This document shows positions 20,069 to 55,954 of a DNA stretch of 58,826 bases, one piece after another. Source of the stretch: Spirogloea muscicola. Taxonomy: Eukaryota; Streptophyta; Zygnematophyceae; Spirogloeales; Spirogloeaceae. The number at the start of each line of letters is the position of its first letter. Position 1 is the first letter of the stretch. Below the pieces are notes generated by a model, which saw only the letters and a list, made by a program, of their open reading frames with translations, made no database searches and was not told the origin of the DNA. The stretch lies in assembly GCA_009602725.1 (NCBI GenBank), contig WELB01000030.1:629769-688594 (forward strand), given 5' to 3'. The translations under genes were made by a program, and so were the position numbers.

Positions 20069-20615
20069 GCTCTAGAATGTAGAAGTCACCTTGCTGTGCT
20101 ATTCACTGGGGTAGCATTAGCTACTCACAGACTTGTCACATTCATTTGGAAGTCTTGATGCTAGCTACCAACTGGCATCGTGCTGAACACACTCTGTGCT
20201 TGATCAAAGCATGACCTTGACAAAGCTGGAGCAGCAAGCCGCTTACTTAGAAAGCCAGCAGAGTTTCGATCTGTTAATAGCCATTGAAGAAGGCGCGTAG
20301 TGTGCATGGATTGGAAGGGAGACCAAGCTGAGCCAGTACACTGTGATGCCAAATGACCACCGAGCTCAGCGTTGTCGGACTTCACAAACGGCACCCTTGT
20401 ATTCATGTCGCTGATGGTGCTTAGTGCTCGCTGCTTTGCTTAGAAATAAATGAGCTGGATGGAGCACTCTGTAAGGTTGGACAGAGAGGGCGTCTAGACC
20501 CTCCACCATGCAGGCCCAAGTACAAGACTGGTGGTGACCAGTAGGGAAGCAAGAGGAGATGGACAAGCTTGGTCTGCTCCTGAAGATTCCTAAAGGTCAA
20601 GAACAGAGTACTGCA
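20069..20615. other. Convergent intergenic stretch, no gene seen
   Basis: 547 bp between the GCN5 stop and the DnaJ gene stop, two convergent genes. No conserved coding block, RNA gene or clear repeat recognised. Confidence 0.6.
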
Positions 20616-22483
20616 CTAGCGGGCAGGGGAGAGCTCGTGCTGGAGCTGCACTGACTTGAGTGCAAGGAGCATGACAGCCGCCGGGGCGAGGCCCGAGGCT
20701 TGGACAACGATGCCGCCAAGCCAGAGCGTGACTGCCACCGCCGCCGCTGCCTCGTGGTACCGCTCACCCCACCACCGCAACATGGACACGAGCACGAGCA
20801 CAAGGAGCAGTCCCTTCTCGCCACCACAGCACCATGCGGCGGCCGCGGCGATGCGGTGCCCGCACGGCACGCCCCGCGCAACCATGAGCACTGCTGCCAT
20901 GGTGCTAAGAGTGGCGTGCGTCCCGAAAGCATGCCAAAGCACAGCAATCGCCCACAAGACAAAGACGTCCTCGCCGCACAAACCGGGATTCTGGTGCGGC
21001 CACAGTGCGACGCCCTTGGCTGTCCTCCCATTCACACCTACGGCAGCTGTTGCGCCAGCATTGCCATCACCGTCGCCGCGCCTCTGATAGGCGTAGCCGG
21101 CAGCATTGTCTCGCCTCTTTGGCGGCGGGAATGGACCCATCTCCCACGCAGCATGTCCGGCCATGTTGACGTCGAAAGACCGCCGGCTGGCTGTACGCTG
21201 GCGCTCTCTACGCCCAAAGGCGCCCTGGCTGCCCCTTGCAGCGTCGCGATATTTGGCACCACCACGCTCTGCAGAAGCTGAGGGCTCTGCGAGAAGACCA
21301 GTAGCCCACAGAGTTTAGATCTTTGACTTTATGTCATGGGGTCAGAGTTTTGGATATTCAGAAGCTTGTGCTGCCATCATCAAGTCCTGGACAAGACCAG
21401 AACAGCATGCCAGGTGAAAGACGAACCACCTCACTGCTGAGCTGCCACCAAGCCACCGGCCGCACATTACCTGCAGCAGGTGACGGCCTCGCCATGGGCT
21501 CCCTGGCTCTCGCATGGCCGCCGCTGCCTGCGGCTGCATTGGAATTGCTGGCAGTCTGAGCATACTGTGCCGCCCTCCTCCTCGCCCCGTCCTCGCTTCT
21601 GTAGCGGTGCTCCCGCTCGGCTGCCAGCTTTGCCTGCAGTGCCTCATCATACAACCGCCGCTTGTGGTCGTCGCACAGCACCTGCCAAATCATTTACCAC
21701 GATAATTAGGCAACAGCTAATGTAGTGCGAGCAGTTTCCGACTGCGTACATAGCTGACTAAGCGGGAGAGATATGACCAAGTCAGGCACGCCCTGAGTGC
21801 CATGCTCTATTAGACCACTAATATGTTGAATCTGATCGAACCAGGCTAAAAACAACGTTAGACTCAAACCCCTAAAGCGCCAACACTTCAATGTCGTTCA
21901 CATGACTTTAGCCACAAGCCCCCGGACTTTGAACTCGAAGTGTAGCCGGCCATTCGACCACAACAATATTCCAGGCTATCTGAGGCGTAGCCAATTGACC
22001 AGAGCGCTTACATCGTATGCATCCTTGATGAGCCGGAACGTCTCGGCGGCATCACGCGCCTTGTTCACGTCCGGATGGAACTGCAGCCAACCTCAGCGGG
22101 TCTGATTAGGAGACCCCGTCAAGAGCAAGCGAATCACGGGCGAGAGGCCCGGGAGGGAGGTGCCCTCAGCGGAGGCTCTCGGCCGCCACCGCCACCATGG
22201 CGACGACGGCGACGACGGCGGAGGCGCCAAAGGCAATTGGGTGGTCAGTGGCTGCGGCAGCCCCTGCGGGCGGACTTGGGCGCCACGGGCGCAGCATGAG
22301 TGGTTGAGGGCTAAGGATTTCGGATTTAGATTTTCGGGTTCAGGGTTTCAAGTGCCGCTTGCGCACCCGGCGGGCGAGCGCCCGGTAAGCGCATTTGATG
22401 GCGGCGCGGCCGGCCGCCGGCTCGAGGCCCAGCGTGCGGTAGTGGCTCGGCGGCGGCGGCGGCGCCGCGGCGGCGGAGGCCAT
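20616..22483 (-). CDS. DnaJ-domain protein with C-terminal membrane helices
   Basis: J-domain co-chaperone that would activate an Hsp70; the subfamily is not one I recognise. Four minus-strand exons, phase-consistent: 22483-22367, 22080-22012, 21681-21471, 21268-20616, giving 349 residues. The J domain occupies roughly residues 13-80: HYRTLGL, helix II with AYRALARR, the essential HPD in FHPDVNKARD, then AAETFRLIKDAYDVL and RRLYDEAL. A charged, low-complexity middle follows. The C-terminal ~110 residues hold about four hydrophobic stretches (for example DVFVLWAIAVLWHAFG, LLLVLVLVSMLRWW, VAVTLWLGGIVVQASG), so the J domain is probably displayed at a membrane with its C-terminus anchored. There is no zinc-finger or DnaJ C domain. 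Intron 1 carries a degenerate telomere-like tract near 22,305-22,350. It is the last host gene before the repeat island. Confidence 0.88.
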
Positions 22484-22544
22484 GGCGCCGCTGGCTGGCC
22501 GGCCTGGTGGCGCTTGCCGGCCGCTCGGGAGACTGACGGGGGGA

Positions 22545-22925
22545 GCCTTGGCTAGTACTGTAAGCTGGTCTAGCCTTACTGGTGGCACAAAGAAAGAAAG
22601 GGCTCGCCCATTGAGGATAGGGGGCTGGACAAGCCAGCCCAAAAAAGAATGAACAAAGAACGAGAAGGGGGCCAGAGGAAGCCAGAGGAAGCGCTAAGAA
22701 ACCAAAGCACACAAAGAAAGAAAGCAGCTACAAATCACTCAGTAACCCCTGCTAAGCAGCCGCAAATCAGAGAGGCTAGGGTCCTGGAAGTGGCTTGTCC
22801 GTTGCCGTCCGGTATCTGGGTTTCAGTTAGCGACCTCTACGTCCTGACTCGTGGTTACTGAGCGGGTCAGCTTCGCAGCAGGTGATGTACACCTGTCAAT
22901 GTGCTTGCCACTGTTCTTGGTCCAC
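22545..22925. repeat. Family A repeat copy split by a nested family B insertion
   Basis: The left part (AAGCTGGTCTAGCCTTACTGGTGGCAC) and right part (TTGCCGTCCGGTATCTGGG... GTTAGCGACCTC...) match the uninterrupted copy at about 35,590-35,760, where they are joined. The segment 22,589-22,790 between them is a copy of element B. Confidence 0.75.
22589..22790. mobile_element. Short element B, copy 1 (nested in family A repeat)
   Basis: About 200 bp, nearly identical (only a handful of differences) to 27,606-27,806. It begins AAGAAAGGGCTCGCCCATTG, contains the small hairpin GGGCTGG-acaag-CCAGCCC, and runs through a GGCCAGAGGAAGCCAGAGGA stretch to AGGCTAGGGTCCTGGAA. It codes for nothing recognisable. 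Possible short target duplication GTGGC on both sides, weak. Confidence 0.7.
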
Positions 22926-24780
22926 TCCTTTTGGGCTGGCCTCTCACACTTCATCAACGTGCAGGGCGCGCTCTAAGTCAGGCCTCCGGCTTTCGTGGCG
23001 GCGCTCCAGCTCCCCAAGTTAGCTTGTCAGATTTGTTTGTGCTCACCCGTGGGTATTGATGTCACCTTAGGCACCTTACTTTAGGTATGTGTAGCCTTGT
23101 TTAGTCTGCACTAGACTTTGCCTGAACAATGTATTGGCTTGAATTGGCCTCCCTTTTATTTCATGCGCCCCGCGCGCTCTCTCACACGCAGTCACCAATT
23201 TGGCCCCCGCTGTCCCTCACTTGGCCACACAGGCCCTCCATCGGGGGGAGCCGTGCCGATGGGGGCCACGTCGACTCGACCTGCACCGCTTCTGGAGCTG
23301 CTAGCTGCTAATTGAAGTGGCTCTCCCAATGGGGGCAAGGGCTGTGAGAAGCCAGCCCGAAAAGAATCGACAACGGGCGAAGGGGCTAAAGTACGAAGGC
23401 CATCACAATACACACCCCATTCCTTGCCCAGAAGAAAGAAACAGCTCTTCCCGTGGAAGACGATGGTTGTGAGAGGCCCGCCTAGAGGAAAGCATACAAG
23501 GTCTGAAGGGCCGGAAGGTGCAAAAAGCAGGACACTATGCTCCATGATGTCTGCCAATGGAGGCTCAATGACCTCTAGTTCAGCAAGTGCGGATCAGAAT
23601 GAATAGAGGGCGGAAGAAAGACTCTTCCAGAAATTGGCTATGGCTGTGATTGGCCAGCCCAGGAGAAGAATGAACAAACTTGCCCACAACCCGCCAACTG
23701 CTTCTTTAAAGTAGAGGTTTCTGAACGCCCGTTTGCAGTAGTCCCTTGTGTTGTAGTCCCTCCCTTAGTTGTATGGTTCAGCTCTTTTCCGGCCCCGTAG
23801 GACCTTGTCCTAATTCTGTCGGCTGCCTTTTCACATGGACCTGCACCCGGAGACTAGTTTCTCTGACTTGCGGCTGCTCCACTTAGGCGATATTGAGCAC
23901 CAAGTGGCCACTTGAGCAGCTGTGTGCTTCAGCGCTCTTCTGGCCCATTCGAGTTATGTTCATCCTCTTTCTGGGCTGGTCAATCACAGCCATCGCCCTC
24001 TACTGGAAGAGTCTGTCATTTACCTGGCATTGGCGCGCAAGCCCCATCTGCCGCCCGCGCCACTCAAAGAAGAGCCAAACAATAGCCGGAAAGCCCAAGC
24101 CCCGGAATGAAGGGTTGTGACACCTTGATGAGCTGTGGCGGGTGGGTACGGCACCAGCGGGTGGGTAAGGTTGGAAGTATGGGAGACGGGCACGCGAGTG
24201 CCGTGCTACACTGGCCTTTGGGACCAGGGGTGCCAAATGCGCCACAGATGGCCTTTGCCACCAAGAAACGATGCAATCATTACTTGACCGAGCATATACA
24301 GAGTGAGGAGGGTCGGGGCCGAGCAGTTCTCCTGACCCAGTCTCTCACTCTTGCAAAACTGCCCCGCGCTGCCGCCGCGACCGCATTGCTGACGGGCGTC
24401 GATCGCTCCTACTGTGCCACGCCAAGAGGGCATATTGCGGAGGAAGAGGCTGGCAGCAGCAGCGCAGCTATAGAGAGCTTACTCGGGAAGCTCTGCGTCC
24501 AGGTCGCAGAAGGCCGGCGCACACTTGGTTAGCCGCGAACCTCGTGATGTTGCGTGACAGTATAATCAAGACTTGAACAAGTGTGTGTGGATGTGCCCCT
24601 CTTGGTGTGAGATTGCATCTTGCATTGTGGAACTGCAGCTTGTCATTGTTGCTCTTGCGGGCGTTGTGGTGCTTTGAACCTTGTCCATTCAGATCGGTCA
24701 GCCAGTCATGTTCATTATCACGACTTGATCGCTGTGAATAGAATGCCTTGAGTACTGTTTCCAAACAAAAGACCTGAGGG
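22926..24780. other. Repeat-rich stretch without a recognisable gene
   Basis: Fragments of the short dispersed repeats recur here: CCAGCCC-rAAAGAAT-GACAA motifs near 23,350 and 23,660, and a fuller family C copy at about 23,855-24,012 (CTCTGACTTGCGGCTGCTCC ... CTTTCTGGGCTGGTCAATCA). An open frame at 24,107-24,532 (141 codons, plus) has no domain I recognise and is probably fortuitous. Confidence 0.6.
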
Positions 24781-25610
24781 TATAAATTATTTACTCCTTC
24801 CAGTGTCTCGTGTTTATGCGCTGTTCGTGTGGCTTGTTTCTCAACATTTTTTCCTGATTCGAGACTAAGCCAACTGAGTACAAGTCACTAAGCGCTGTTG
24901 TTAATTTCTTTTGAAAATTTATCATTGGCCTTCTCCATTCTAGCTACAGAAGTCAATGCGCTCATTCAGCTTGGTGGGGAGGATAAAACCGTGTGAACGG
25001 ATCTGTTACTGTTGTGTGGCATTCTGTCATTGCTAAGGCTGGCGTTGCCAGACGGTTGTATAGCTGTGCTACGCCATCAAGGGAAAATCTGACTAACTGT
25101 TTACTCGAATAATTAGATGGTAGTTTAACGTTGCCAAACATGTTATCATCATTTCACATTTTATGCAAAAACATGAGTAGATCAGAAGTAAAGACCTTTT
25201 CGGATTTTTTTTCGAAACTTACCTTCAAAAGTAGTTGGAAATAATGCACTTAGGTGTTTTCTTCGGCACAAGAAAATCCATAATTAACCAAGTTTTACAA
25301 ATCTGGATTTGAGAAGACTTGTAACTTTAAGTGAAAATAACTTACACATGAGATATATCAAATGATTGATGATTACTTTCAATTGATTTTCAAAAATATC
25401 TTCTCAGAAATTTGTTAAAATTATTGGTCTGAGGTTGATTAAAAGATGGCAAACTAACAAACTGTTCAGGTAATTTCATATTGTAAACAACTCGTCCTTT
25501 TGTCGAAATCAATGTATTTTCTTTTTTAGTATGCTCAAATTGTCCAACATTGGAGCAAAATCGTTTGGATTATGGATTAACTGCTACAGTAGCAGCTTTT
25601 ACTTTCTCTT
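24781..25610. other. AT-rich block, left side of the palindrome
   Basis: A sharp change from GC-rich host DNA to clearly AT-rich sequence with A/T runs and no long open frames. It directly follows the stop codon of the minus-strand PstS-like copy. The mirror block is 31,575-32,430; only the ~80 bp nearest the PstS-like copies still align between the two sides. Confidence 0.75.
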
Positions 25611-25619
25611 TACCATTTT

Positions 25620-26114
25620 CTATGAGATGGTTGCAACAGCATTCCTGTTCTGGGTGAGAAGGCTGCTAGGATCGGGAACAAATCCGAGGGGGGGGAGGAG
25701 GTTCTGGCCGGAGGTGGAGAACATGAAGTTGAGGAAAGCCTTGGTGGCCGAAGCAGCGGGGACGCTGCCAGTGGGGTAGGTCTTGCGGGCCCAGATGTAG
25801 GCGAAAGAGACCATGGGGCAGACACCGGAGCCGGGCTGGAAGATGGTGTTCACTCCGGACCAGGTAGCGGTGGCGGAGGGCAGGGACACGGGGATGGCGC
25901 CGGTCACAGAGCAGGAGTTGCCCTTGTAGTTTTGGCCAGCCTTGTTGTTGGTGGCAGCAATGCGGACGTTGCCGGTGACGAAGGTGATGGCGACCGGGGT
26001 GCCGAGGTAGCAGATGGCACCGGGGTGGGAGAACACGTACGAAGCGACGCCGCTGGAGCCCGTGGCAGTGACCAGGCGCGGGGAGCCCCAGCTGACGACC
26101 TCCCCGACCTTGCT
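25620..26114 (-). pseudogene. PstS-like phosphate-binding protein, 3' fragment (left copy)
   Basis: About 165 codons of the C-terminal half of a PstS-type periplasmic-binding-like domain. Family marks: TATGSSGVASYV, HPGAICYLGTP, NNKAGQNYKG, then PMVSFAYIWARKTYPTG and a C-terminal FLNFMFSTSGQNLLPPLGFV block before the stop (minus strand, ends at 25620). In PstS proteins the GSSG loop contributes to phosphate binding. The 5' part is missing: the copy runs into GC-rich palindrome DNA and then the N gap. It differs from the right copy by one base in about 512 (a Lys/Glu codon change at 25,784). It could be a terminal exon of a gene whose other exons are lost, or a captured fragment. Confidence 0.75.
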
Positions 26115-26132
26115 TGCGGGCCACGGGCGCGC

Positions 26133-26949
26133 NNNNNNNNNNNNNNNNNNNNNNNNNNNNNNNNNNNNNNNNNNNNNNNNNNNNNNNNNNNNNNNNNNNN
26201 NNNNNNNNNNNNNNNNNNNNNNNNNNNNNNNNNNNNNNNNNNNNNNNNNNNNNNNNNNNNNNNNNNNNNNNNNNNNNNNNNNNNNNNNNNNNNNNNNNNN
26301 NNNNNNNNNNNNNNNNNNNNNNNNNNNNNNNNNNNNNNNNNNNNNNNNNNNNNNNNNNNNNNNNNNNNNNNNNNNNNNNNNNNNNNNNNNNNNNNNNNNN
26401 NNNNNNNNNNNNNNNNNNNNNNNNNNNNNNNNNNNNNNNNNNNNNNNNNNNNNNNNNNNNNNNNNNNNNNNNNNNNNNNNNNNNNNNNNNNNNNNNNNNN
26501 NNNNNNNNNNNNNNNNNNNNNNNNNNNNNNNNNNNNNNNNNNNNNNNNNNNNNNNNNNNNNNNNNNNNNNNNNNNNNNNNNNNNNNNNNNNNNNNNNNNN
26601 NNNNNNNNNNNNNNNNNNNNNNNNNNNNNNNNNNNNNNNNNNNNNNNNNNNNNNNNNNNNNNNNNNNNNNNNNNNNNNNNNNNNNNNNNNNNNNNNNNNN
26701 NNNNNNNNNNNNNNNNNNNNNNNNNNNNNNNNNNNNNNNNNNNNNNNNNNNNNNNNNNNNNNNNNNNNNNNNNNNNNNNNNNNNNNNNNNNNNNNNNNNN
26801 NNNNNNNNNNNNNNNNNNNNNNNNNNNNNNNNNNNNNNNNNNNNNNNNNNNNNNNNNNNNNNNNNNNNNNNNNNNNNNNNNNNNNNNNNNNNNNNNNNNN
26901 NNNNNNNNNNNNNNNNNNNNNNNNNNNNNNNNNNNNNNNNNNNNNNNNN
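26133..26949. other. Assembly gap (817 N) in the left palindrome arm
   Basis: Run of N directly followed by a long poly(A). In the opposite arm the corresponding sequence is continuous, so the gap lies within an insertion relative to the right arm. Confidence 0.98.
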
Positions 26950-27073
<124 letters not shown>

Positions 27074-27605
27074 GATACCCGCGGCTCGGCCGCCCGCACG
27101 TGCGGCCCGGCTATCGCTCGCCCGGCGGGCGCGGGCCCCTCGCCGGGTGCCGCCCTGTCGCAGACCAGCGCGCTCGCCACTCGAGTGGGGCCCCCTCGCC
27201 CCGGCCGGTCAGGGCGGAGGTTCCGCGGCCCGCATCTGCTGAGATTCCCGGCGCAGCGAGCCGCTTCTCCGGGGGGACCCGGCTGCCATCATCGTTCCTG
27301 CCGAAACGATGATGGCTCCACGGCCTGCCGGTCACGCCCACGGTGTGTGCTCTTTGCGCCATGATCGTGCAGCCGCCAGCCCCGCCGGCCCCTCTCGAGC
27401 ACCCCTGGAAGCGCGCGCCCCGTAGGGAGAAGCTTCGAGAGGAGATGCGGAATCAGTGAGTGCATCTTGAATCTTCCCCGCACCTTATGACTCCAGTCCT
27501 CTGCCTCATTGGTAGTTTACCACTCTTCTGCCCATTCGTCCTTGTCTTTCAAATCGGGCTGAAGTCTCACAATTTTCGCCCCCTTTGGAAGAGCCACTCT
27601 CTATC

Positions 27606-27831
27606 AGAAGAAAGGGCTCGCCCATTGAGGATAGGGGCTGGACAAGCCAGCCCAAAAAAGAATGAACAAAGATCGAGAAGGGGGCCAGAGGAAGCCAGAG
27701 GAAGCGCTAAGAAACCAAAGCACACAAAGAAAGAAAGCAGCTACAAATCACTCAGGAACCCCTGCTAAGCAGCCGCAAATCAGAGAGGCTAGGGTCCTGG
27801 AAATGGGTCCCCTGGACAGAGCCCGAGGCAG
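27606..27831. mobile_element. Short element B, copy 2, with 11-bp target-site duplication
   Basis: About 226 bp bounded on both sides by CACTCTCTATC (27,595-27,605 and 27,832-27,842). The mirror position in the right palindrome arm (about 30,625) has the flanks joined with a single copy (reverse complement reads GCCACTTTCTACCTGCCTCC), an empty site. The body matches 22,589-22,790 almost exactly. No coding capacity; a non-autonomous mobile element by structure, class unknown. Confidence 0.8.
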
Positions 27832-28639
27832 CACTCTCTATCTGCCTCCATACCGCGTTCTCTCGCCTGGCAGTCGCTGAGTCCGCTTTGTTCTGCTTTT
27901 CGTGGTCCTGGCGGCTCCAGACTCGAGGCTGGAGAGCTCCCCCCTTTCCCGATGATCACTCACCTCCTGGTGATTGATCACCTGGAGCTCCCTGGGAGGA
28001 GGCACTCCCTCCTTGCAGCAGCGCAGTCCAGCCCAGCGGCCACCCAGAGGAGGGAAGCTCCTCGCGGGAATCCAGGGATCTTCCCTGCATCCCAGGTGGA
28101 TGCCGAGACTGTCCGCCTCCGCTTGTGCAGGATTCGTTGGAAGTAGCCGCTGGGCGGTGTGGCTGTGAGGAGTCAGCTTGAGACGCGTGGGCGCCTCTGA
28201 CAGGGTCTGGAAGCCCCAAAGGGGGGCGAGTTCGTAGAAGTTTGCGGTTGCTGCCATTGAAAGAGCGGCTGTAAAGCCAGCTAGGTGCACACAGAGGGTG
28301 TTCATGACTACAGTAGCGGAGCCACAGGCTAGGCAGACAGGTAGAGAGAAACTTTTCAGTAGAGGGCGAATGCTGTGGTCAGCCCAGAAACAAAGAGTGA
28401 ATACGATTCGAAGGGGCCAGACAAGCGCTAAAGCCAGGTAGCTCTTAGTACCCCCAAAAGAAAGAGGGCATGAAAGGTCAGGCGGAATACGAGGCAGCAG
28501 CCAAGCCGCGGCGTGCCCGCAACCCCCACACCTGCCCGCCGCTCCTTCCATCTGGCAGCCGGGGAGGCCCACCCAGGCTCCCACTTTCCGACCCATTGTC
28601 AATGTCCTTGCCTTTCCGGGCTGTCTGCAGCGAGCTCAG

Positions 28640-28825
28640 GCTAATGCCTTGCATCAGAAAGCTGGGCGAGCTCTATTTGGTGACAGAAGGGCTTCGTACC
28701 TGACATCTAGTATTCATGCATCGGTTAGCGACCTTTATGTTTTGACCCGTGGATTTTGAGCGGGTCAACCTGCTGCAGGTTATGTAGATATTTAGATGTG
28801 CTTGCTTGCCTTTGTACTTGGCCAT
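28640..28825. repeat. Dispersed repeat copy (family A) in palindrome left arm
   Basis: GCATCAGAAAGCTGGGCGAG and CATCGGTTAGCGACCTTTAT, then GAGCGGGTCAACCTGCTGCA and ATGTGCTTGCTTGCCTTTG. It is a diverged relative of the copies at 16,425, 22,800 and 35,577. Confidence 0.65.
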
Positions 28826-29854
28826 TGGCCTATGTTTGTTTCAAATACACGACATTTTCTTCACAGCCCTCGCCCCCTTTTGGAAGTGCCACTATCTTGT
28901 TCATTCTTCTGGGGTCAATCCTCACAGAGATGAGAATCAGCTCTCTTATAGTTTCCGATTTATGTAGCCCCAACTTCTGCACTAGGTATTGCCTGAACAG
29001 TGCTTGGCTTGAAATGGACACCCTTTCAGATCATGGGCACCGCACCCCTCCTCTCTTTATAGATGTAAGGCAGTGGCTGCGAGAGGCCAGCGCACTAGGA
29101 CTGAATAGTCCTCGCCCCTTTGGTAAAGCTGCTTCTTTGCAGTTGTGAACTAGAGGTATTGAACGTTCGTTCGCAATAGTCAGGGGAAGAAACTTCGTGC
29201 TTTTGCGCATTCCGGCCCTTATGTACCTTGTTCATTCCTTTGGGGTTCTGATGGCCCTCATGTGCCGGGGTGGGTCTATGCATTATTGCCGATGTAGTCA
29301 CCACAGATATGGTTACCTCTTACAATGCGGGGCTCTCAGCTTCAAATGGTGGGCGTTGTCGCGCCACACAACATCGATTGCCGTACTACATCGATAGGTC
29401 AAATATTGACAAAAAAGATCTGTGATGACTACATTGGCAATGATGCGCAGAATCTCGCGTCAGGTCAACCCATAAGAATGAACAAGGTTGGAAAGGGCCG
29501 GAATGCGCAAGAGCAAGAAACTCCTCTCCCTGACTTTCGCGAATGGACGCACAGTAACCCTTAGTCAATTCAATAAGTGCAAAAGAGCAGCTTTCCAAAC
29601 GGGCGAGAACTGTTCAGTCCTAGTGCGCTGGCCTTTAACAGCCACTGCCTTACATTGGGAGAGCTCTTTCTCAGTGAAGATTGGCCCCAAATGAATGGGC
29701 AAGAAAGTGGCTCTGTCAATGGGGGCGAGGGTTGTGCACAGCCAGCCCGAGTAGTAAAAAAATAGACAAGGGAGTCAGAAAGTGGGAGCCGAGGTGAGGC
29801 TCCTCGGCTGCCAGATGGCATGGGCGGCGAGAAGGTGGGGTTGTGGGCCTGGCC

Positions 29855-29975
29855 AGGGGACCAACTACAAGGAGACCAGTTTCTCCGACCTGCGGCTGCT
29901 CAGCGGGGGTTAGTGAGTGTTTCGTAACTACTTGTTTCCCTATGTGCTCTGGCACTTTCCCTGGCCTTTCACAGC
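29855..29975. repeat. Diverged element B/C-related segment in palindrome right arm
   Basis: CAGTTTCTCCGACCTGCGGC, TCAGCGGGGGTTAGTGAGTG, and CCCTGGCCTTTCACAGCCAC resemble the complement of element B and family C. The left arm lacks it at the matching position, so it is a second arm-specific insertion or a loss. Confidence 0.55.
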
Positions 29976-31073
29976 CACCGCCCCTTGGCTGCTGCCTCCG
30001 ATTGCCGCCAGACCTGCCCTCTTTCTTGGGGGTACCAAGAGCTACCTGGCATTAGCGCTTTTCTGGTCCCTTCGATCATCGTCTTTCCAGGCTGGCCAAT
30101 TACAGCAATCTTCTAATGGTCATTGCCTAGCTTGTGCCTCCGCTACAATAATTCATGGACACCCTTTGTGTGCACCTGGCTGGCTTCACAGCCGCTCCTT
30201 CGATATCAGCAGCCTCATTCTCCCTTACGAACACGCCCCCCTTTGAAACAGCTACTCCTCCGAGCCCTGACGGAGGCGCCCACGCGTCTCCAGCTCTCCT
30301 CACAGGCACACCCTCCCGCATACGTCCAACGAAAATCTGCACAGGCGGAAGCGGACAGCCTAGGCTCAGACTCGAGTTTTATATGGGAGCGCCCCTGAGA
30401 TGCAGGGAAGATTCCTAGATTCCCGCGAGGAGCTTCCTTCCTCTGGGTGGCTGCTGGGCTGGATGGCGCTGCTGCGGGGCGGGGAGTGCCTCCTCCCAGG
30501 GGCTCTGGGTGGAGTGATCATCGGGATGGGGGAGCTCTCCAACCTCGAGTTCTGGAGCCGCCAGGACCACAGAAAGCAACAAAAGCGGACTCAGCGACTG
30601 TCAGAGATCGCGGCGTGGAGGCAGGTAGAAAGTGGCTCTTCCAAAGGGGGGCGAAATTGTGAAATTCCAGCCCGATATCGTTGAAGACAAGGACGATATG
30701 GGCAGAAGAGTGGTAAACCACATATGAGGCAGAGGACTGGAGCCATAAGGTGCGGGGAAGATTCAAGATTCATGCACTGATTCCGCATCTCCACTCGAAG
30801 CTTCTTCCAGGGGTGCTCGAGAGGGGCCGGCGGGGCTGGCGGCTGCACGATCATGGCGCACAGAGCACACACCGTGGGCGTGACCGGCAGGCCGTGGAGC
30901 CATCATGGTTTCTGCCAAAACGATGATGGCAGCCTGGACACCCCCCCGGAGAAGCGCCCCGCAGCGCCGGGAATCAATGCAGATGCGGCGGGGCGGACTC
31001 ATCGCCCCAGCCGGCCAGGGTGAGGCGACCCCACTCGAGTGGCGAGCGCGCTGGTCAGCGAGCGCGCCCGTGG

Positions 31074-31574
31074 CCCGCAAGCAAGGTCGGGGAGGTCGTC
31101 AGCTGGGGCTCCCCGCGCCTGGTCACTGCCACGGGCTCCAGCGGCGTCGCTTCGTACGTGTTCTCCCACCCCGGTGCCATCTGCTACCTCGGCACCCCGG
31201 TCGCCATCACCTTCGTCACCGGCAACGTCCGCATTGCTGCCACCAACAACAAGGCTGGCCAAAACTACAAGGGCAACTCCTGCTCTGTGACCGGCGCCAT
31301 CCCCGTGTCCCTGCCCTCCGCCACCGCTACCTGGTCCGGAGTGAACACCATCTTCCAGCCCGGCTCCGGTGTCTGCCCCATGGTCTCTTTCGCCTACATC
31401 TGGGCCCGCGAGACCTACCCCACTGGCAGCGTCCCCGCTGCTTCGGCCACCAAGGCTTTCCTCAACTTCATGTTCTCCACCTCCGGCCAGAACCTCCTCC
31501 CCCCCCTCGGATTTGTTCCCGATCCTAGCAGCCTTCTCACCCAGAACAGGAATGCTGTTGCAACCATCTCATAG
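31074..31574 (+). pseudogene. PstS-like phosphate-binding protein, 3' fragment (right copy)
   Basis: Mirror of the left copy: the same 3' reading with TATGSSGVASYV, NNKAGQNYKG, YIWARETYPTG and the same stop (TAG at 31,572-31,574). Identity to the left copy is about 511 of 512 bases over 31,062-31,573, then drops immediately after the stop codon. Codon third positions are mostly C, like host genes. No start codon with a fitting signal sequence and no upstream exon could be placed, so it is a partial gene at best. Confidence 0.75.
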
Positions 31575-32430
31575 AAGATGGTATAGAGAGTAAAAGCTGC
31601 ATCTGTAGCAGTTATCGAACGATTTTGCTCTGAACAATCTGAATCGAATGAAGTAGAAACTGTACTGTCAAATCCCAATTGCACTAACAAACGATGACAT
31701 TCTTCAATTAAATTGTGGATTTTGAGTAATCAAATTTGACAATTACCACAGAATTTTGATATTTTAGACAATTTTACTGAATGTGCTTTCTATAGCTAAG
31801 TATGAATGGTTCAATGCAGTAAATCTGAAATACTTAATGAAAAGTGAGGACCAACAGCTTTATGACAAATAATATCAAAAACTATCAGATAGGGGATAAT
31901 AAAATACTTCTACAAGTAAAATCACCATATCAAATCTTTATCAACGCATTAATAAGCAGCAACTTTTAACGACAGATATCATTAAACACCCGATAATTTG
32001 AAAGAGGTTGGAATATTTTGATAATGTTTGATGATGCGAATGATTTGAATGATATTAAACCTCTAATGGTGCGAATCATATTTACCCCTAATTGCTTCTA
32101 ACATTGCACCTTTGCCACATACTGTAGAACAATCAAGACGGTAACACACTTGACCACAAAAGACAATTGATCTACTAGAAAACATAGTCTGTTCATACCC
32201 CAATTAAGTTCCCCTACCAAACTGACTGTATAATTCGCAACTGTGCTGATGATGGTCAACACCAGTCACACTCTCAGAGAGACACTAGCTTCAGATACGG
32301 CAGAAGCCAACTTAGTCACTACAATTGCTGTACCTGTCATACTTAATGCCAGTCACATTCTCAAAGTGACAATAACATCAGATGGAATAAGCAACGCTCA
32401 TACTCGAGCCTTTTCGTACAATTTCATCAA
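31575..32430. other. AT-rich block, right side of the palindrome
   Basis: AT-rich DNA starting immediately after the PstS-like stop codon, with many short A/T runs and no recognisable gene. A frame at 32,243-32,450 is open but unrecognised. Composition returns to normal near 32,440. Confidence 0.75.
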
Positions 32431-32564
32431 AAATCGCTCTGCCGACGGTCTCCCCTCGCCCACATGTCAAATAGCAACCGAACATTGCAGCAATCTCGTA
32501 GTATTACGACCATGGTTTTGGCACAGCCGGAGCCTGGCCAACAACAGCGAGTGTGCTCGCTGTC

Positions 32565-32640
32565 TGGGAGACTGTCGGCCTTTTCCAGCCCCTATCCTCA
32601 ATGGGCGAGCCCTTCTTCTTCTTCTGATACAAAGGAAGGG
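32565..32640. repeat. Partial element B fragment
   Basis: TTTTCCAGCCCCTATCCTCA and ATGGGCGAGCCCTTCTTCTT, the complement of one end of element B; the rest of the element is missing or unalignable here. Confidence 0.65.
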
Positions 32641-33479
32641 CCTCTTTATGTCCACACCGGGCTGACTTTTCACAGCCCCCGCCCCCTCTGGAGAGGCTCA
32701 CTTTCTTCTGTTAGGGGAGAGAGAGAAGGCGCGCGGTGCGCATGAAATTGAAAGGGAGGCCAATATTAGCCTTACAAATGTCTTATTAACTGGGTAATGA
32801 GCTGGCTAAGGGGGACACTAATATCCCCGAGTGAGCACATGCATATCTGACAAGCTATACTGAGGAGCCAAACCACCCCCACGGAAGCCATTAGCCTGGG
32901 CTAATGCACGACCAGCACGCTGGTGAATTGCGAGTCCTTGAGAGCGCTGCAGACTCAACGATAACCGCATTCTAAAGCATGCAACTATGGCTTGCGGGAC
33001 GCTAGAATGGCCAAGCTACCCGCCCGACTACGTCGGCGGGCATCGACATCCAGTGCCAGGCGATGGAGGAGGGCAGACCACTTCGTTCCGTAGCCGCCGT
33101 AGATGTCCATGGCGCATGGGAAGAAGTGGTCGCCCCGGGGGTGGTCTCTGTAGGGGAAAAGCTATGGCGGGCGCGTGGGCCACGCTAGAGCGCCGGCTAC
33201 CTACGTCACTGCTTCCTATGGTCAACCGGCTTCTGTGCAGCCGCCACATGGCAGGCTGTAAGGCATAGCCAATCTACAGTACTACGCAAAACTTCCGTAG
33301 GGCTTCGTGGAAGGAAGATCTACGACTGCAGTGCCCCCCGCGTAGCTGTGTGGAAGTGTCGTCAGCGTGGCAGCATCTGGCAGTCCAGATGAAGTCAAGA
33401 TTTCAATCTCCACAAGTGCTACCTAAGTGACGGAATCCGTCATATCACTCCGCTCTCGGAAGAGGCTCGGGCAGGGCGC

Positions 33480-34060
33480 TGCATGTAGGGCTTAATGCGG
33501 GAGACGTGGGCAGTGGCTTTGTTGCTATGGCTCTGTCCAGTCATCGGCACTTGTAGGATATCGTTCCAAGTTGCTTGATTGCTTGATAGGGTCCACGCCA
33601 AGGCAATGTCGGCTTGATTGATAATCAGATCTTCCTGCTGGAAAAGTGAATGAGGACAAGGCTTCCATTATGATATACCTTGAGTATGTGTCGCTGATTG
33701 TAGTCGCTTGATTGCTTGATAGGGTCCACGCCAAGGCCTTGTCAGCTTGATTGATAACCAGATCTTCCTGCTGGAAAAGTGAATGAGGACAAGGCTTCCA
33801 TTACGATATACCTTGAGTGTGTGTCGCTGATTGTAGTCGCTTTGCTGTCGCCTCCAAGCATCTCCAAATTCCTAGCGGCTGTTGCTCGAGTGACAGCCAA
33901 GTCCTTGTATAGCCTCTCTCCCACTCTTGACTTATCACAGAAGGTCGTCCCTGACCGGATTCGCCTCGTGGTGGTCGTGTCCTTGCCATTGCTGATTGTC
34001 ATCGTCCTTTGTGTTGCTGTTGCCGCCACCGCTGCATCCGCTGACGCCACCTTTGACTCT
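33480..34060 (-). mobile_element. Decayed Ty3/gypsy-like integrase C-terminal remnant
   Basis: On the minus strand, frames broken by stops read LVLIHFSSRKIWLSIKL then TRPWRGPYQ, which resembles the GPY/F module after the integrase core, and further on ATAHVSRIKPYMQ, the usual SRLKPY-type end. No intact open frame; a fossil retroelement. It contains a tandem duplication (33,574-33,839). Confidence 0.5.
33574..33839. repeat. 133-bp tandem duplication within the retroelement remnant
   Basis: Units 33,574-33,706 and 33,707-33,839, each beginning CTTGATTGCTTGATAGGGTC and ending GTCGCTGATTGTAGTCGCTT; they differ at only a few positions. Confidence 0.85.
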
Positions 34061-35574
34061 TAAATAGCTCTTTGTTGTTTTCTATATCTGGAAGAGCTTC
34101 TTCCTGTCACAGGACGTCCACACGTACCTGGCTCCTCGCAGCCACCATCATCGTATGGCTTCGCCTAGCATCTTCCTGCACAGGCAAAAGCCCGTCAGGC
34201 TAGGCTCAGATACATCACGTTCGTCTATATCTGGACCACTTTTCGGATGCGCCCCTGGCATGCAGGGACTCTTCCTGATTCCTGAGAGAGGCTTCCCTCC
34301 TCTTGGTGCTAGGCTCGACGGGTGCTCACGTTCCTCTGAACCTAGACTACTTTTCGACATGCATATGCATTGTCTCGTGTCTAGTTGTGTACTTTTCTTT
34401 TCGGCACGCTTTTTTGGCTATGGATATTGTCCACTCTTTTGGGGCTGGCTTGCCCAGCCCCTCTTCTCTTCTCTCTTTTTGGGCTGGCTTCTCACAGCCC
34501 TTGCCCCCATTGGGAGAAAGAAGAAGGTGCTCGCCCATAGAAAAAGGGGGCCAGCAAAGCCAGCCCAGAAAGAATGGACAATGTCATATTGGGGAGCCAC
34601 TTCTTTCTTTTCGAGGCACCCCTGGGATGCACTGCAGATTCCTAATTACTGAGAGAAACTTCCCTCCCCTTGGGGCTGGGCTGGGCGGGTGCTCACGTTC
34701 CTCGGAATCTAGACAATCCTTCGGATGCGCCGTGGGCATGGGGAGAATTTTTGATTACTGAGGGAAGCTTCCCTCTTGGCTTCCTTCTTCTTCTTCTTGG
34801 TGCTGCTGGGCTGAACAGGTGCTGCGGGAAGTGAGTGCACCCTTCCAGAGGTTCTGGGTGCAGTTACTAATTTGGGGTCTAAGTGAGATCCCAAGGGGCG
34901 AGTGCCAGAGCGGCCAGGACGACAGAAAGCAGAACGGAGTCAGACTCAGCGGCTGCTGGCGCCATCGAGGAGCGGGGGAGCGGGGGCCCTTGAGTGCGGG
35001 AAGATCCTGCCAGAGCTTCGCCTCGACGGGGCGCTCGCTTCCAGGGACTTTTGAGAGGGGGCCGACAAAGGCTGGCGGCTGCGCGATCATGGCGCGCAGA
35101 GCCCCCGTGGAACGTGAGCGCTGCTGGTCGACGAGCTCCGCTCGTTGGAACGATAATGGCGGCCGGCCGCAGCCTCCCTGCGGCTGCTCAACAGGGGATA
35201 TTGAGCACCCAGAGGCCACTTGAGTGGCTGTGTGCTTTATCGCTTTTCTGGCCCGTTCGTTCTCTTTCTGGGTTGGCAAATCACAGCAGTCGCCCTCTCT
35301 GGAAGCGTCTTCTTTTCTGCCTGTTCCTCCGGGGAGGTGCGGCCGTGGCGCCGGGGGATCGCGGGTGGTGGCGCGGTCAGAGGAAGCAATCCAGGCGGGC
35401 TGGCGGGTGAGGGCAGGACAGTCGAGTGGGGAGTCGGCTAGTCAGCACTTGAGCTGCGCCCGGCGAGGGGCCGGCGCGCGCAGAGCGAGCGGGGGCGGGC
35501 CGGGGCCTGGCGGCGGCGGCGACTTCTCCGCCTCACCCCCCCTTACTTTGACAACCTGTCTGCAACGAGCTCAG
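34061..35574. other. Repeat-rich stretch without a recognisable gene
   Basis: Contains several GGGCTGG/CCAGCCC hairpin motifs (34,443-34,461; 34,480-34,500; 34,550-34,580) with nearby AGAATGGACAA or CTTCT blocks, and a family C copy at about 35,165-35,315. Open frames here overlap these repeats and carry no domain. Confidence 0.6.
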
Positions 35575-35760
35575 GCGTATGCTCTGCATCAGAAAGCTGG
35601 TCGAGCCTTAGCTGCTGGCACAAGAGCTAGTCAATTGCCGTCCGGTATTCGAGCGTCAGCTAGCGACCTCTATGTGCTGACTCGTGGTTACTGAGCGGGT
35701 CAGCTTAGCAGCAGGTGACGTACATTTGTCCAATGTGCTTGCCTTTGTACTTGGCCACAC
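35575..35760. repeat. Dispersed repeat copy (family A), uninterrupted
   Basis: GCATCAGAAAGCTGGTCGAG, TTGCCGTCCGGTATTCGAGC, GTCAGCTAGCGACCTCTATG, ACTCGTGGTTACTGAGCGGG, then the ATGTGCTTGCCTTTGTACTT end. The reference copy for showing that the 22,545 copy is interrupted. Confidence 0.75.
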
Positions 35761-36053
35761 ATGGCCTCCCCATCTCTTAATACACACGCACTGTCTGCCT
35801 TACTGAGGCACTCTCGGCTGGCATCAGCCGCCACGCACGCAGCCTGCTGGGCCGCCTTCCCTAGGTATGCGCCATGTCCTCGGACGTGTATGACACCTTG
35901 TCACTATCGGCCCTGCCACAAATTACTTCACCACGCATTCCCCCACCCGAAGCTCGCTGCACTTGTCGATCAGCAGCCATGACCCGCCTGCCATTGCCGT
36001 CCTGGTCCTGCCTGTCGTAGCTTCCGCCTTCGCCGCATGCTCAAACGCAGCAT

Positions 36054-36360
36054 ATGGCGGACGTGGAAGAGGAGGCCTTCGCCCAAGCTGTGCGGCTTTT
36101 ATCCAAGGACGACCTTCGTGGCCGCGCCCGGCTATTGTCGGCTTCCTTCCCAAAGGTGGCGGCATGGTTGACGGCCCTCCCGATCTACGCGGCGCTCAGC
36201 ATGCAGGACGACATCATTTCTGGACGGCTGTCCACCCGCCTCGTCTCCCTCAGTGGTGTGATGCAGTGCGAGAGTGGAGAGCGCAGCACAGAGGCGCGTA
36301 GGCCGCACATGCACCGGTGTGCATGGGTAGGTGGGGAGGGAAGACAGAAGGCGCGGCGGT
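36054..36360 (+). other. Open frame of uncertain nature, possibly retroelement-derived
   Basis: Reads MADVEEEAFAQAVRLLSKDD then SASFPKVAAWLTALPI. The AAWLTALP segment is reminiscent of ORFs next to reverse transcriptases in protist and plant retroelements, but I cannot confirm this. A similar doubtful remnant (minus strand, HFFPCAMDIYGG) lies near 33,100-33,190. Not called as a host gene. Confidence 0.3.
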
Positions 36361-36639
36361 GCGCTTAAAGTAAAGGGTGGCCAATTTAAGCCAACACACT
36401 ATTCAGGCAGAAGCTAGTGCAAAAAGTGGGGCGACATGATGTGAAGCCCTATGCTCGGTGGCTAAAGTAACAGTGTGACGTCTGGCAAGCGGAAAGGCAC
36501 GCCCGACCTCCTCCAAAACGCCATGTATGATGTCTTCTGGCGGTTTAATATTATTCCTTTTTCTTTGGGTTGGCCTCTCCCAGCCACCGCTTTCTCCTGG
36601 AAACGTCCTTCCTTGTTTTCTTTCTGGAGGCGGGCCTCA

Positions 36640-36830
36640 CCGTCGCCAATGGAGAACTCCAGCGTCATGCCCACCACACTTGGGGTTACTGAGTGATTCG
36701 TAGCTGCTTTGTCTCTTCTTGTGCTTGTTTTTCTTAGCGCTTCCCCTGGCCCCCTTCTCGTGCTTCGTTCATTCTGTTTTGGGCTGGCTTTTCCAGCCCC
36801 TATCCTCAATGGGCGAGCACTTTCTCACAC
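36640..36830. repeat. Diverged element B copy, inverted orientation
   Basis: GGGGTTACTGAGTGATTCGT, CTTAGCGCTTCCCCTGGCCC, TGGGCTGGCTTTTCCAGCCC and TATCCTCAATGGGCGAGCAC are the complement of element B with moderate divergence; an older copy at the right edge of the island. Confidence 0.75.
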
Positions 36831-37297
36831 TTGCGGCGGGTGGCCGTCTTCAAGCGCGTCACACCGCGTCACCCCAACCTCGTGGCCAGCGCGCTGGGCG
36901 GGGTCCCCACGGCCCCGCCCCCGATCATAGCAGACGTTGTCGACATCGGCTGCTTTGACGAGGTTGGCCACCAGTCGGGAGAGGAGGGCGGGCGGTGCAG
37001 ACCCATGTGATGCCACACCCCCTCCACCTCTCGCCACGTGGCGACTACCCGCGGGGCCACAGCTTCCTCTTACGCGTCGCCCACCGAGGCCGCCAAGTGG
37101 CAAGCTCCCTCCAAGCACCGTAGTACGTCTCCCAGCGCGTCCGGTGGCTCCTCGCCACGTGGCGGCCGGCGCGCCGGTCGGACAAGCGGACACTCCTCCC
37201 GAGCCGTCATTTGTCGGCTGGCCGCGGCCGTCACGTCAGCGCCAGTTTCCCGTTAACCCGTCTCGTTGCCGCCGCCGCCGGGCTCTGCGCCTCCGCC

Positions 37298-39938
37298 ATG
37301 GGACCGGCGGCGGCCACGGCGGCGGCGGCGGCGGCGGCGACGGCGGCGGGGGCGGCGGGGGCGGCGGCGGCGGCGGCGGGGGCGGCGGCTCTCACAGGCG
37401 CCGGGGATGTGGTCCATGATGTGNNNNGCCGCCGCCGCCGCCGCCGCCCCCGCCGCCGCCGCCGCCGCAACGGCGCGGCCCCTTGCGCCCAGCATCGATC
37501 CCCTCAAGGTCCGTCTTTGCCACTGGCGCTGGTTATCCATACGGGCCTCGTCGGCTCATCGCCAGCTGCCTGGCCAGCGGCCGCGCAGCCATGCCTGACG
37601 AGCTCGCCGCCGCCGCCGCCGCCGCCGCCGCAGGCAGTCATGTTCCAGGGGTTCAACTGGGACTCGCACTGGTGCGGCCGCTGGTACGACGTGCTCGCCG
37701 CCACCGCCGCCGACCTCGGCGCCGCCGGCATCACCGACGTCTGGCTCCCGCCTCCCAGCCACTCCGTGTCCCCGCAAGGTCTGCTCGCCGCATCAAACAG
37801 TCATTCTGTAGAGCCTTGTTACTTAGACACAGCCGAGCTCGGGCAGTCCAGCAGCTGCCCCGCTCTTTCTCTCTGTGTAGATGATGACCAGCGCCAGTAC
37901 CGCTGCTGAGCATCGACGCTGCATGCATGGGCGATAGGGTATCTTCCGGCGCAGCTCTACAACCTGGACGCGTCGCACTACGGGTCAGAGCGGTCTCTCA
38001 GGGCGTTGGTGGATGCCATGCACGTCGCTGGCGTGCGTGTCCTGGCGGACATCGTCATCAACCACCGCAGCGCGACCCAGACCGACGAGCGCTGCGTGTG
38101 GGCTGCCTTCAAGGGCGGGCATCGTGATGGCAAGGCCGACTGGGGAGCGTGGGCTCTCACGCGCGACGACCCTTACGGCGACGGCTCTGGCAACCCGGAC
38201 AGCGGCGCGAGCTGCCCGTTTGCGCCCGATCTCGACCACACCGACCCCGTCGTCCAACGGGACATTACTGAGTGGCTCAACTTCCTCCGGCGCGAGATTG
38301 GATATGATGGCTGGCGGTTCGACTTTGTCAAGGGATATGCACCTCTCTTTACGCAGATGTGAGTAGGAATCACTTACCCCAGAAACTATGAAAATAATCA
38401 AGGCGATGAATACAGTGAAAGTGACCACTTTGCGACTTGTGGAGTACACCTCTTAAGAGATACTCTTCTTTGGCAGCTATTTGTGTTGGCATGTAATCAC
38501 TGGCCACTGTTATTGCTATCCTTAGGTACTGCGAGGCGACAAAGCCAGACTTTGCGGTCGGCGAGCTCTGGCCCCCCATGGAGTACGGCAACTGTGGTTG
38601 TTTTATGTATGTCCAGGGTGAGGCACGCTCCTGGCCTGACTTGGACTTGTGAATAGTGGCAAGCCTGTAAGATCACGTCAAGCCTGGTTGGAGCACTGCA
38701 TCCTTGCATGAACCCTTATTCTTGCAGGTGCTTTAAAGTCAGGGTGTAATAGGGTTCAGGTCAACTCATCTCATGTAATATTCCTTGGCGCAGACAGAAA
38801 TCGGCAAGAGCTCATCAGCTGGGTGAATTCGACTGGGGGCGCCTGCCATGCATTTGACTTCACAACCAAGGGCATCTTGAATGTGGCAATGAACGGCGAG
38901 CTGTGGCGACTCAAGGACCGCGAGAACCATGCGCCAGGGATGATTGGCTGGTACCCTGAGAAGGCGATCACGTTCGTTGACAATCACGACACGGGCTCGT
39001 CGCAGAATCACTGGCCATTTCCCGCTGACAAAGTGATGGCTGGCTACGCCTACATCCTCACACACCCAGGCGTCCCCTGCGTGGTGCGCAGCTGCTAGGA
39101 TCACAAATACCTTCTTGGATTGCCTGTCGCCACTGTCTACCTTCTGTGTGGCATTCAGGATATCAATGAGGGTAGAACTTGAAACCTTGGTTGTTCTTGA
39201 CGACCTTGTTCTTAAAAGATACATGGCCCTGTCACTTGATCAGTTGCAGCCCTTCAAATGCTGACGCTTGACGAGACTTGGCTTGTGCAGTTCTACGATC
39301 ACTTCTATGATTGGGGCCTACGCCAGCAAATTACGGATCTGATTCAGCTGCGTAAGCGCTCTGGCATCCAGGCGGACAGCAAACTGTCCATCCTCCACGC
39401 CCCGGACCACCTCTACCTGGCTACAATCAACGAGCGAGTCATGGTGAAGATTGGCCCTCAGTGAGCATCTAACCGTGTCCCTGAGCTGCACCAGTATATA
39501 ACCATAGCAAATGTTGCATTTCTGAATTCGTCTTTCCTCTGTGCAGTGCACATATATCTGACACCTTGTACGCAGTACATATCTTCTTGAACTGCCTATT
39601 CTTATCACTGAGCAGCTCTGGCAGCATTATACTGATGCCATATTGGTCAACCAATCTTGAGCTGCAGGATGGATCTTGGCCACCTGCTCCCAGCTCATGA
39701 GGACTGGAGGGTGGCCTGCTGCGGCCACGACTACTGCGTCTGGGAGAAGATTCTGGTGCCGACAGAGCTGGAGATTGTTGGTGGCCATGGAAGCCAAGCT
39801 TCTGTACTGCCGCTCAACATAGCAACTGGAAGCACACTGCAGCAATCTGACATCCAGATGGGCATGTTCAATGGCTTTGATGGGATGTCGGACATTGTCG
39901 CAGCTGGTGGCAAAGCTGCGAAAACTCTCATTGCATAG
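37298..39938 (+). CDS. AMY: Alpha-amylase (GH13, plant type)
   Basis: Hydrolyses alpha-1,4-glucan bonds in starch. Exons: 37298-37508 (containing NNNN at 37424-37427), 37634-37778, 37938-38358, 38526-38617, 38794-39083, 39291-39460, 39668-39938; joints from exon 2 on are in phase, 462 residues plus about 70 in exon 1. GH13 core: [28 protein letters not shown], conserved region [10 protein letters not shown], region [13 protein letters not shown] with the nucleophile Asp, region III VGELWPP with the acid/base Glu, region [19 protein letters not shown] with the stabilising Asp, then [22 protein letters not shown] and the C-terminal domain ending VWEKI. The family normally stops at about this point; here 61 more residues follow before the TAG. 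The N-terminus is almost pure Ala/Gly, so I cannot say whether it is a transit or signal peptide, and the start is uncertain. Confidence 0.95.

Positions 39939-52293: not shown

Positions 52294-55954
<3,661 letters not shown>

Follow-up and report, generated by a model that had tools for sequence, protein, structure and literature searches.

A divergent pair of PstS-like gene ends with inverted upstream arms in Spirogloea muscicola

Foldback transposons of the FB/Galileo type carry long inverted arms around a short middle. On the eutherian X chromosome, recurrent inversion of a spacer lying between inverted repeats was reportedly described by Caceres and colleagues in 2007. In flies, inverted hsp70 gene pairs undergo gene conversion, as described in the available part of PMC3071340. 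Here we analyse an imperfect palindrome of ~6 kb in the alga Spirogloea muscicola, in which two homologous PstS-like genes lie inverted at one locus as divergent 3' halves accompanied by inverted upstream arms. The window, i.e. the whole stretch of DNA analysed (58,826 nucleotides), corresponds to C30:629,769-688,594. C30, C131, C340 and similar names denote contigs or scaffolds of the S. muscicola assembly (153 Mb, 471 contigs), and all other coordinates are window positions.

In our view, the locus probably arose through an old local duplication in inverted (divergent) orientation, which took in a secreted PstS-like gene and the DNA upstream of it, and the gene ends would subsequently have been homogenised by conversion.

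Palindrome architecture and syntenic copies

Self-BLAST of positions 24,301-33,000 confirmed the collinear inverted arms of the ~6 kb imperfect palindrome, which had been noticed in a sequence-only reading of the window. The longest inverted block (555 columns, 98.7% identity) pairs 25,578-26,132 with 31,062-31,614; further blocks extend over 455 (84.4%), 720 (74.0%) and 252 (74.6%) columns, in addition to shorter ones. A repeat search of 24,000-33,500 revealed 17 inverted pairs, 16 of which are nested collinearly, while the 17th (27,612-27,646 and 32,580-32,614) is part of a dispersed repeat and falls outside the nest. The members of the innermost nested pair (29,275-29,308 and 29,418-29,451; 85% identity over 34 nt) have 109 nt between them. 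The axis computed from this pair is at ~29,363, within an unpaired centre of ~109 bp (29,309-29,417); the initial estimate, a centre near 29,364 with about 100 bp unpaired, was right. The midpoint of the outermost pairs is found further left (~28,600) because the left arm is longer.

The left gene, located on the minus strand with its 3' end outward, is represented by the 3' half of exon 2 and ~15 bases past the stop codon (25,605-26,132). This 528 nt stretch shows a 99% inverted match to 31,062-31,589. The right gene, on the plus strand, consists of the 3' half of exon 2 and the 3' flank (31,062-31,689); it is 91% identical to C340:87,148-87,775, and the match extends beyond the stop codon into the 3' flank. 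Both copies start partway through exon 2 and face outward, as two divergent genes. The left inner arm (27,073-29,308, minus strand) is the upstream region of the left gene and is inverted relative to the right inner arm (29,418-31,061, plus strand), which is the upstream region of the right gene. The two inner arms are collinear in blocks with C131:337,792-334,328 (73-90% identity) and C131:334,372-337,733 (69-92% identity), respectively. They are 74-84% alike to each other in BLAST blocks. The arms are therefore too diverged for a recent fold-back read artefact, which was rejected, and the view that they are old and have diverged by substitutions, indels and arm-specific inserts was borne out. 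It is also plausible, as had been suggested, that so large a palindrome survived through this divergence, which would lower the risk of hairpin formation.

Collinear gene pairs in S. muscicola are attributed to a whole-genome triplication in the part of PMC11547041 available to us, and a triplication in Spirogloea is also mentioned in the accessible portion of PMC12866927. In line with this, the window has two syntenic copies, on C131 and C340. The left syntenic flank (20,277-24,478, plus strand), which lies outside the palindrome, matches both copies. Within this flank, 20,277-22,112 is 89% identical to C340:82,003-83,825 and 85% identical, in inverted orientation, to C131:344,146-342,268; it is present at full length only at three places (C30, C340 and C131), the remaining 11 of its 14 matches being short. 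Further inward, 23,890-24,478 is 74% identical to C340:85,528-86,124. The right syntenic flank (32,064-35,102, plus strand) is made of blocks collinear with C340:88,057-91,541 (72-87% identity). A right-hand anchor (54,000-57,000) has matches on C131 (86%) and C58 (85%).

The three copies differ in the parts of the palindrome they retain. Read in the orientation of the window, C131 features the left flank, a gene with its 3' end facing the flank, an inner arm collinear with 27,116-29,352, and a sequence like 35,043-36,955. No right arm was seen in C131 between 334,328 and 331,948, where near-axis sequence recurs only as a short direct repeat. C340 features the left flank up to 24,478, AT-rich DNA, exon 2 in the right-arm orientation, and the right flank. 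No inner arm adjoins the C340 gene, and exon 1, sought in the 6.7 kb C340 region, matched over no more than 16 bp, a level expected by chance. C131 thus holds the left gene and one inner arm only, C340 holds the right gene only, and C30 holds both. Because C131 and C340 each carry one half in place, the arms are native DNA, into which a few dispersed repeats have been inserted.

These arrangements may be accommodated in a simple series of events. A PstS-like gene and the ~2-3 kb upstream of it would have undergone a divergent duplication, at the latest around the separation of the three syntenic chromosome copies and most likely before it. Subsequently, C131 would have lost the right half, and C340 the left half along with the centre, while C30 kept both arms. 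The 5' part of the right C30 gene would have been removed by a deletion that fused upstream DNA with the interior of exon 2; the left gene may still be whole, with its 5' part concealed by a run of N. As inverted repeats, the gene halves would recombine, and conversion, probably proceeding from right to left, would maintain their near-identity. The inner arms would meanwhile drift apart, pairing more poorly and carrying inserts.

Arm-to-arm identity and related loci

Identity between the arms climbs from ~75% around the axis, where they are as diverged from each other as the syntenic copies are, to 99.8% in the gene halves. Sites shared by two of three sequences were counted in a three-way alignment of the left inner arm (L), the right inner arm (R) and C131, which spans 1,486 sites; the two left-arm repeats were removed, and the right-arm repeat was kept. 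In the two 200 bp bins nearest the axis, 31 sites are shared by L and R, 45 by L and C131, and 43 by R and C131. The corresponding counts are 74, 46 and 30 in the next three bins, and 128, 32 and 31 from 30,385 outward. The subset of well-aligned columns gave 10, 17 and 19 near the axis, and 70, 23 and 17 outward. In the gene part, the arms resemble each other more than they resemble their orthologues, silent sites included, which is not the case near the axis. The overall pattern would fit an old duplication with conversion increasing outward.

The same alignment bears on the possibility that the duplication took place on C30 alone, after the three copies had separated, from a left gene like that of C131, the C340 gene having been flipped separately. 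C30 alone among the three copies has both arms, and over the whole alignment L and R share 233 sites, compared with 123 for L and C131 and 104 for R and C131. Shared gap events follow the same trend (15 versus 3 and 5). However, the low count of sites shared by L and R near the axis (31, below 45 and 43) is unexpected for a later duplication. Moreover, the C340 gene is found in the right-arm orientation before the right flank, an arrangement needing an extra inversion, and two further loci of the family, C96 and C20, which are probably syntenic copies, both hold an inverted pair. We consider a duplication restricted to C30 unlikely.

In the gene halves, a single difference was found among 504 compared exon sites, and none at third positions. 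Third-position differences amount to 22 between L and C340, 32 between L and C131, and 33 between C340 and C131, versus 0 between the two C30 halves. Purifying selection was rejected as the cause of the 99.8% identity, as evidenced by the lack of third-position differences and by introns at sister loci, which are more alike within a locus (C96, 96.8%; C20, 88.0%) than between C96 and C20 (82.6-84.4%). The high identity of the gene halves seems best explained by gene conversion. Among 54 informative sites, 30 join C30 with C340, 12 join C30 with C131 and 12 join C340 with C131. The C30 halves are hence nearer to C340, suggesting that the right gene overwrote the left, and conversion probably proceeded in this direction. 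The tract ends are sharp. Identical sites number 499/500 within the gene and 83/100 in the first bin past the stop codon, followed by 38/95 from 31,662 and 38/100 thereafter, and the inner end coincides with the breakpoint and the N run. The sequences beyond the two gene ends differ from each other.

The genes are PstS-like, and their predicted products are secreted proteins resembling phosphate-binding proteins. The open reading frame (ORF) at 31,020-31,574 (residues 14-184) belongs to a family with 76 matches in the genome, which were merged into 65 units; the left gene half matches residues 14-184 of the window fragment P0001 at 99%. Longer family members are composed of exon 1, encoding a signal-like peptide (judged by eye), one intron, and exon 2. 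Matches include contig 144 248,367-248,516 and contig 365 27,335-27,844, and the best eukprot protein matches carry SM000 names, for instance s144:248,114-249,473 and s365:27,332-28,565. The family member P0005 matches TIGR00975 (E 8.3e-29) with 100.6 bits, below the equivalog cut-off of 205 bits. When P0005 was compared with solved PstS structures, the best match was PDB 8ods (E 2.6e-10). P0001 scores 13.8 bits against PF12849, for which the cut-off is 27. A search with the C96 protein, in which 7,992 candidates sharing most words were scored, yielded 35 proteins, 11 of which have SM names. None of the other 24 is labelled as eukaryotic; 8 have phosphate-binding or phosphate-transport names, and 2 of these name bacteria. 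Neighbours within 12 kb among the 65 units are divergent in 8 cases, tandem in 5 and convergent in none. No significance is claimed for this bias, because the C234 pair corresponds to two overlapping weak hits, several members are fragments, and C96 and C20 probably represent one event.

Inverted, divergent and homogenised pairs of the family were identified at three other loci. The arms measure 1,228 nt (98.2% identity) at C96:199,001-206,800, 1,238 nt (94.3%) at C20:335,401-342,800, and 2,325 nt (98.5%) plus 870 nt (86%) at C365:26,801-36,800. Exon 2 is 99.3%, 97.4% and 99.9% identical between the arms of C96, C20 and C365, respectively. The C365 palindrome is larger and contains a degenerate third gene piece. 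A tree of exon 2 was obtained from 29 sequences, consisting of the 8 arms and 21 other loci; L036 and weaker matches without a locus were left out. All four inverted pairs, as well as the tandem pair C14, are sisters within their own locus, with supports of 0.95 (C96), 0.99 (C20), 0.96 (C365) and 0.86 (C30) for the inverted ones. The C14 pair (C14:267,024-267,536 and 273,576-274,088) is a direct repeat, attributable either to recent duplication or to conversion without inversion.

Of the 51 informative sites in the four C96 and C20 genes, 50 favour grouping by locus and one favours grouping by arm; for the intron, the counts are 18 and 1. These counts suggest that the inverted pair probably predates the C96/C20 split and was then homogenised within each locus. 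The alike stretch in C96 extends from just before the ATG to the stop codon, intron included; beyond it, identity falls to 42-44%. The flanks common to C96 and C20 (65% and 73%) run in the same direction, but the spacer they have in common runs in opposite directions; the spacer appears to have been flipped, as crossing over between the arms would produce. Single N positions are located 12 and 211 bp from an arm at the C96/C20 loci, where an assembly error is possible. A further locus, C6, has the left gene and its flank in common with C96 and C20.

Several observations weigh against an old duplication followed by conversion. In the exon 2 tree, C340 groups with C131 (support 0.86) rather than with C30. 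Near the axis, L and C131 do not clearly share more sites than R and C131 do, so the duplication may have occurred at about the time of the split and not before it. C6, a probable third copy of C96/C20, has only one gene in the 9 kb looked at, and is 98% identical in exon 2 to the C96 genes, nearly as close as these are to each other. The C20 intron is just 88.0% alike between the arms. The direct tandem pair C14 is 99.9% alike in exon 2, so homogeneity is not peculiar to inverted pairs. Lastly, the N run is found at a key boundary, the 5' half of the left gene is unseen, and the assembly may be in error at this point.

Junctions, repeats and neighbouring sequences

The run of N is 817 bp long (26,133-26,949) and is read as an assembly gap, in which the 5' half of the left gene may be concealed. 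It starts exactly where the left gene half stops pairing with the right half (26,132/31,062), and is adjoined by a run of 123 A (26,950-27,072), possibly an assembly artefact. The C131 counterpart of this position, where 339,143 and 337,792 are 1,351 bp apart, contains exon 1, the intron and the first part of exon 2; the left C30 gene may be intact in the same way. Possibly, assembly of near-identical repeats halted at the last shared base, in which case the left continuation would differ from the right one, although the N may instead stand for a withheld stretch. Other long N runs in the window (14,996-15,876 and 45,923-46,666) adjoin CGG-type repeats, as expected of GC-rich assembly gaps.

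At the right breakpoint (31,061-31,062), upstream DNA is joined to the middle of exon 2. Positions 337,733 and 339,143 of C131 are 1.4 kb apart, while their counterparts in the window, 31,047 and 31,063, are separated by 16 bp; the right gene is therefore devoid of its 5' part (exon 1, the intron and half of exon 2). The left-arm equivalent of the 1.4 kb interval of C131 consists of the N and A runs and a further ~40 bp. The right junction falls in GC-rich DNA and is bordered on both sides by similar short words.

Such junctions raise the question of whether the assembly placed one gene end twice, or falsely joined the right junction between near-identical repeats. The start of the N run at the arm boundary, the 123 A's that follow it, and the position of the right junction, which falls in mid-exon 2 in GC-rich DNA flanked by similar words, would all agree with an error of this kind. 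In contrast, the sequences outside the gene ends differ, and the right one matches C340; the inner arms, 74-84% alike in blocks, are too diverged to be one sequence read twice; and C131 independently carries the left-arm arrangement. On balance, an assembly artefact appears quite improbable, and we retain the reading of an old inverted duplication.

Dispersed repeats are present in the palindrome, as the sequence-only reading had stated; they look like short passengers, and not like the material of which the arms are made. The first (27,606-27,833, left arm) is up to 96% identical to sequences on other scaffolds, such as C93:312,674-312,900, and is missing from the right arm between the paired blocks on either side. 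The second, a high-copy repeat of ~250 bp (28,614-28,863, left arm, plus strand) with many dispersed copies, was detected in at least 40 other places at 92-98% identity over at least 237 bp (best 40 of 3,504 first-look candidates), and looks recently active. The third (29,844-29,983, right arm) is found at 77-89% identity on many scaffolds (best 40 of 1,493 candidates). Both 27,606-27,833 and 29,844-29,983 match C340:89,819-90,034, and look like members of one family.

The distribution of the arm sequences themselves is restricted. All 13 matches obtained with the outer part of the right inner arm (30,208-31,061), and all 7 obtained with 27,073-27,600 of the left inner arm, map to C30, C131 and C340. 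The near-axis region (29,060-30,080) gave 63 matches: 6 to C30, 3 to C131 and 54 elsewhere, which lie within 29,844-29,983 or are pieces of up to 67 bp (both counts from the best 40 of 1,493 candidates). The claim that the arms are built from non-host repeats conflicts with the presence of the inner arm at the syntenic place on C131. Likewise, a fragment captured at both ends is not supported, as the gene ends belong to the resident family described above and each syntenic copy holds one half. Seven ORFs were searched against Pfam (27,460-27,768; 27,838-28,602; 28,756-29,148; 29,917-30,246; 30,763-31,080; 30,905-31,528; and 31,020-31,574), a set outside which fall 25,620-26,036 and the ORFs crossing the N run. 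No transposase-like family was found among them up to E 0.1, although elements relying on the transposase of a partner would escape this search; for ORF 31,020-31,574, the sole hit was a weak one to PBP_like_2.

The composite or foldback-type mobile element proposed earlier, with its captured piece of a host gene, would account for the long inverted arms at the termini, the short unpaired centre and the internal dispersed repeats, one of which lies in the near-axis part, but is highly improbable, given that no dispersal was seen for the outer inner-arm parts (all 13 and all 7 of their matches are on C30, C131 or C340), that no transposase-like match was found in the seven ORFs, that C131 has one arm and C340 one gene in place of an empty orthologous site (target duplications were not searched for), and that the palindrome ends are the ends of host genes.

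Downstream of the palindrome, a third and older relic of the same gene-plus-upstream unit is located at 34,790-36,042 (plus strand), in which pieces resembling the right inner arm (34,790-34,955 and 35,038-35,120) are followed by a degenerate upstream region and a signal-peptide exon. The latter segment (35,882-36,042) is 71% identical to the upstream region and exon 1 of the C131 gene, and features a 1 bp deletion after the ATG. Parts of the relic are also found in C131 and C340, and it may precede another gene. A tandem array is present at 33,569-33,842 (133 bp period, 2.1 copies, 95% identity), and the neighbouring sequence occurs several times in C340:89,071-90,965. Two ORFs correspond to ordinary host genes, one matching an alpha-amylase domain (38,006-38,362, E 1.8e-8) and the other giving a short CNOT11 match (55,605-56,192, E 3e-6). 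A search of the window against Rfam gave no matches at the gathering score.

Comparison with known systems

Reading the locus as an inverted gene pair turns an apparent mobile palindrome into a readable history, in which three syntenic copies each keep a different part of one pair. The four inverted pairs of a single family, combined with the reported triplication, offer an internal test of homogenising, flipping and loss over the same time span. The locus is also a warning that a gene interrupted by a run of N at the edge of a repeat can mimic a captured fragment. In a broader and rather doubtful scenario, a bacterial-type PstS-like family amplified in this alga may have been kept homogeneous mainly via divergent inverted pairs, through conversion tracts running from start to stop codon, as in C96, and crossovers that flip the spacer. 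The divergent layout would then act as a copy-correction device, surviving or being lost separately on each chromosome copy. No report of this inverted pair was found in the available parts of the literature on gene conversion in Spirogloea, a set that does not cover the Spirogloea genome paper.

The palindrome resembles FB/Galileo-type foldbacks in its long inverted arms and short middle. It differs from them in that the outer arm parts are not dispersed, no transposase was found, the ends are those of host genes, and an arm occurs at the syntenic site. The eutherian X chromosome case is paralleled by C96 and C20, the spacers of which are oppositely oriented between homologous inverted gene copies. 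Unlike that case, only two loci are involved, N positions lie near the arms, and flipping is not shown for the C30 palindrome.

The mammalian sex-chromosome palindromes described in the available part of PMC8981503 have inverted arms kept near-identical by conversion and unstable spacers, as would be the case here. The scale differs: according to the same portion of that source, mammalian arms can exceed 1 Mb at >99% identity, whereas here near-identity is limited to a gene end of ~0.5 kb, and the inner arms are 74-84% alike. The fly hsp70 pairs are similar in being inverted duplicates a few kb apart. As far as the accessible text of PMC3071340 goes, in fly species with a tight cluster the coding parts are homogenised and the 3' untranslated regions have diverged, and the same is seen here. 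In contrast to hsp70, the S. muscicola pair involves an algal PstS-like gene, lies on one of three syntenic copies, has one truncated partner and carries long, diverged upstream arms. The process is of a known kind, and the locus is a new example of it.

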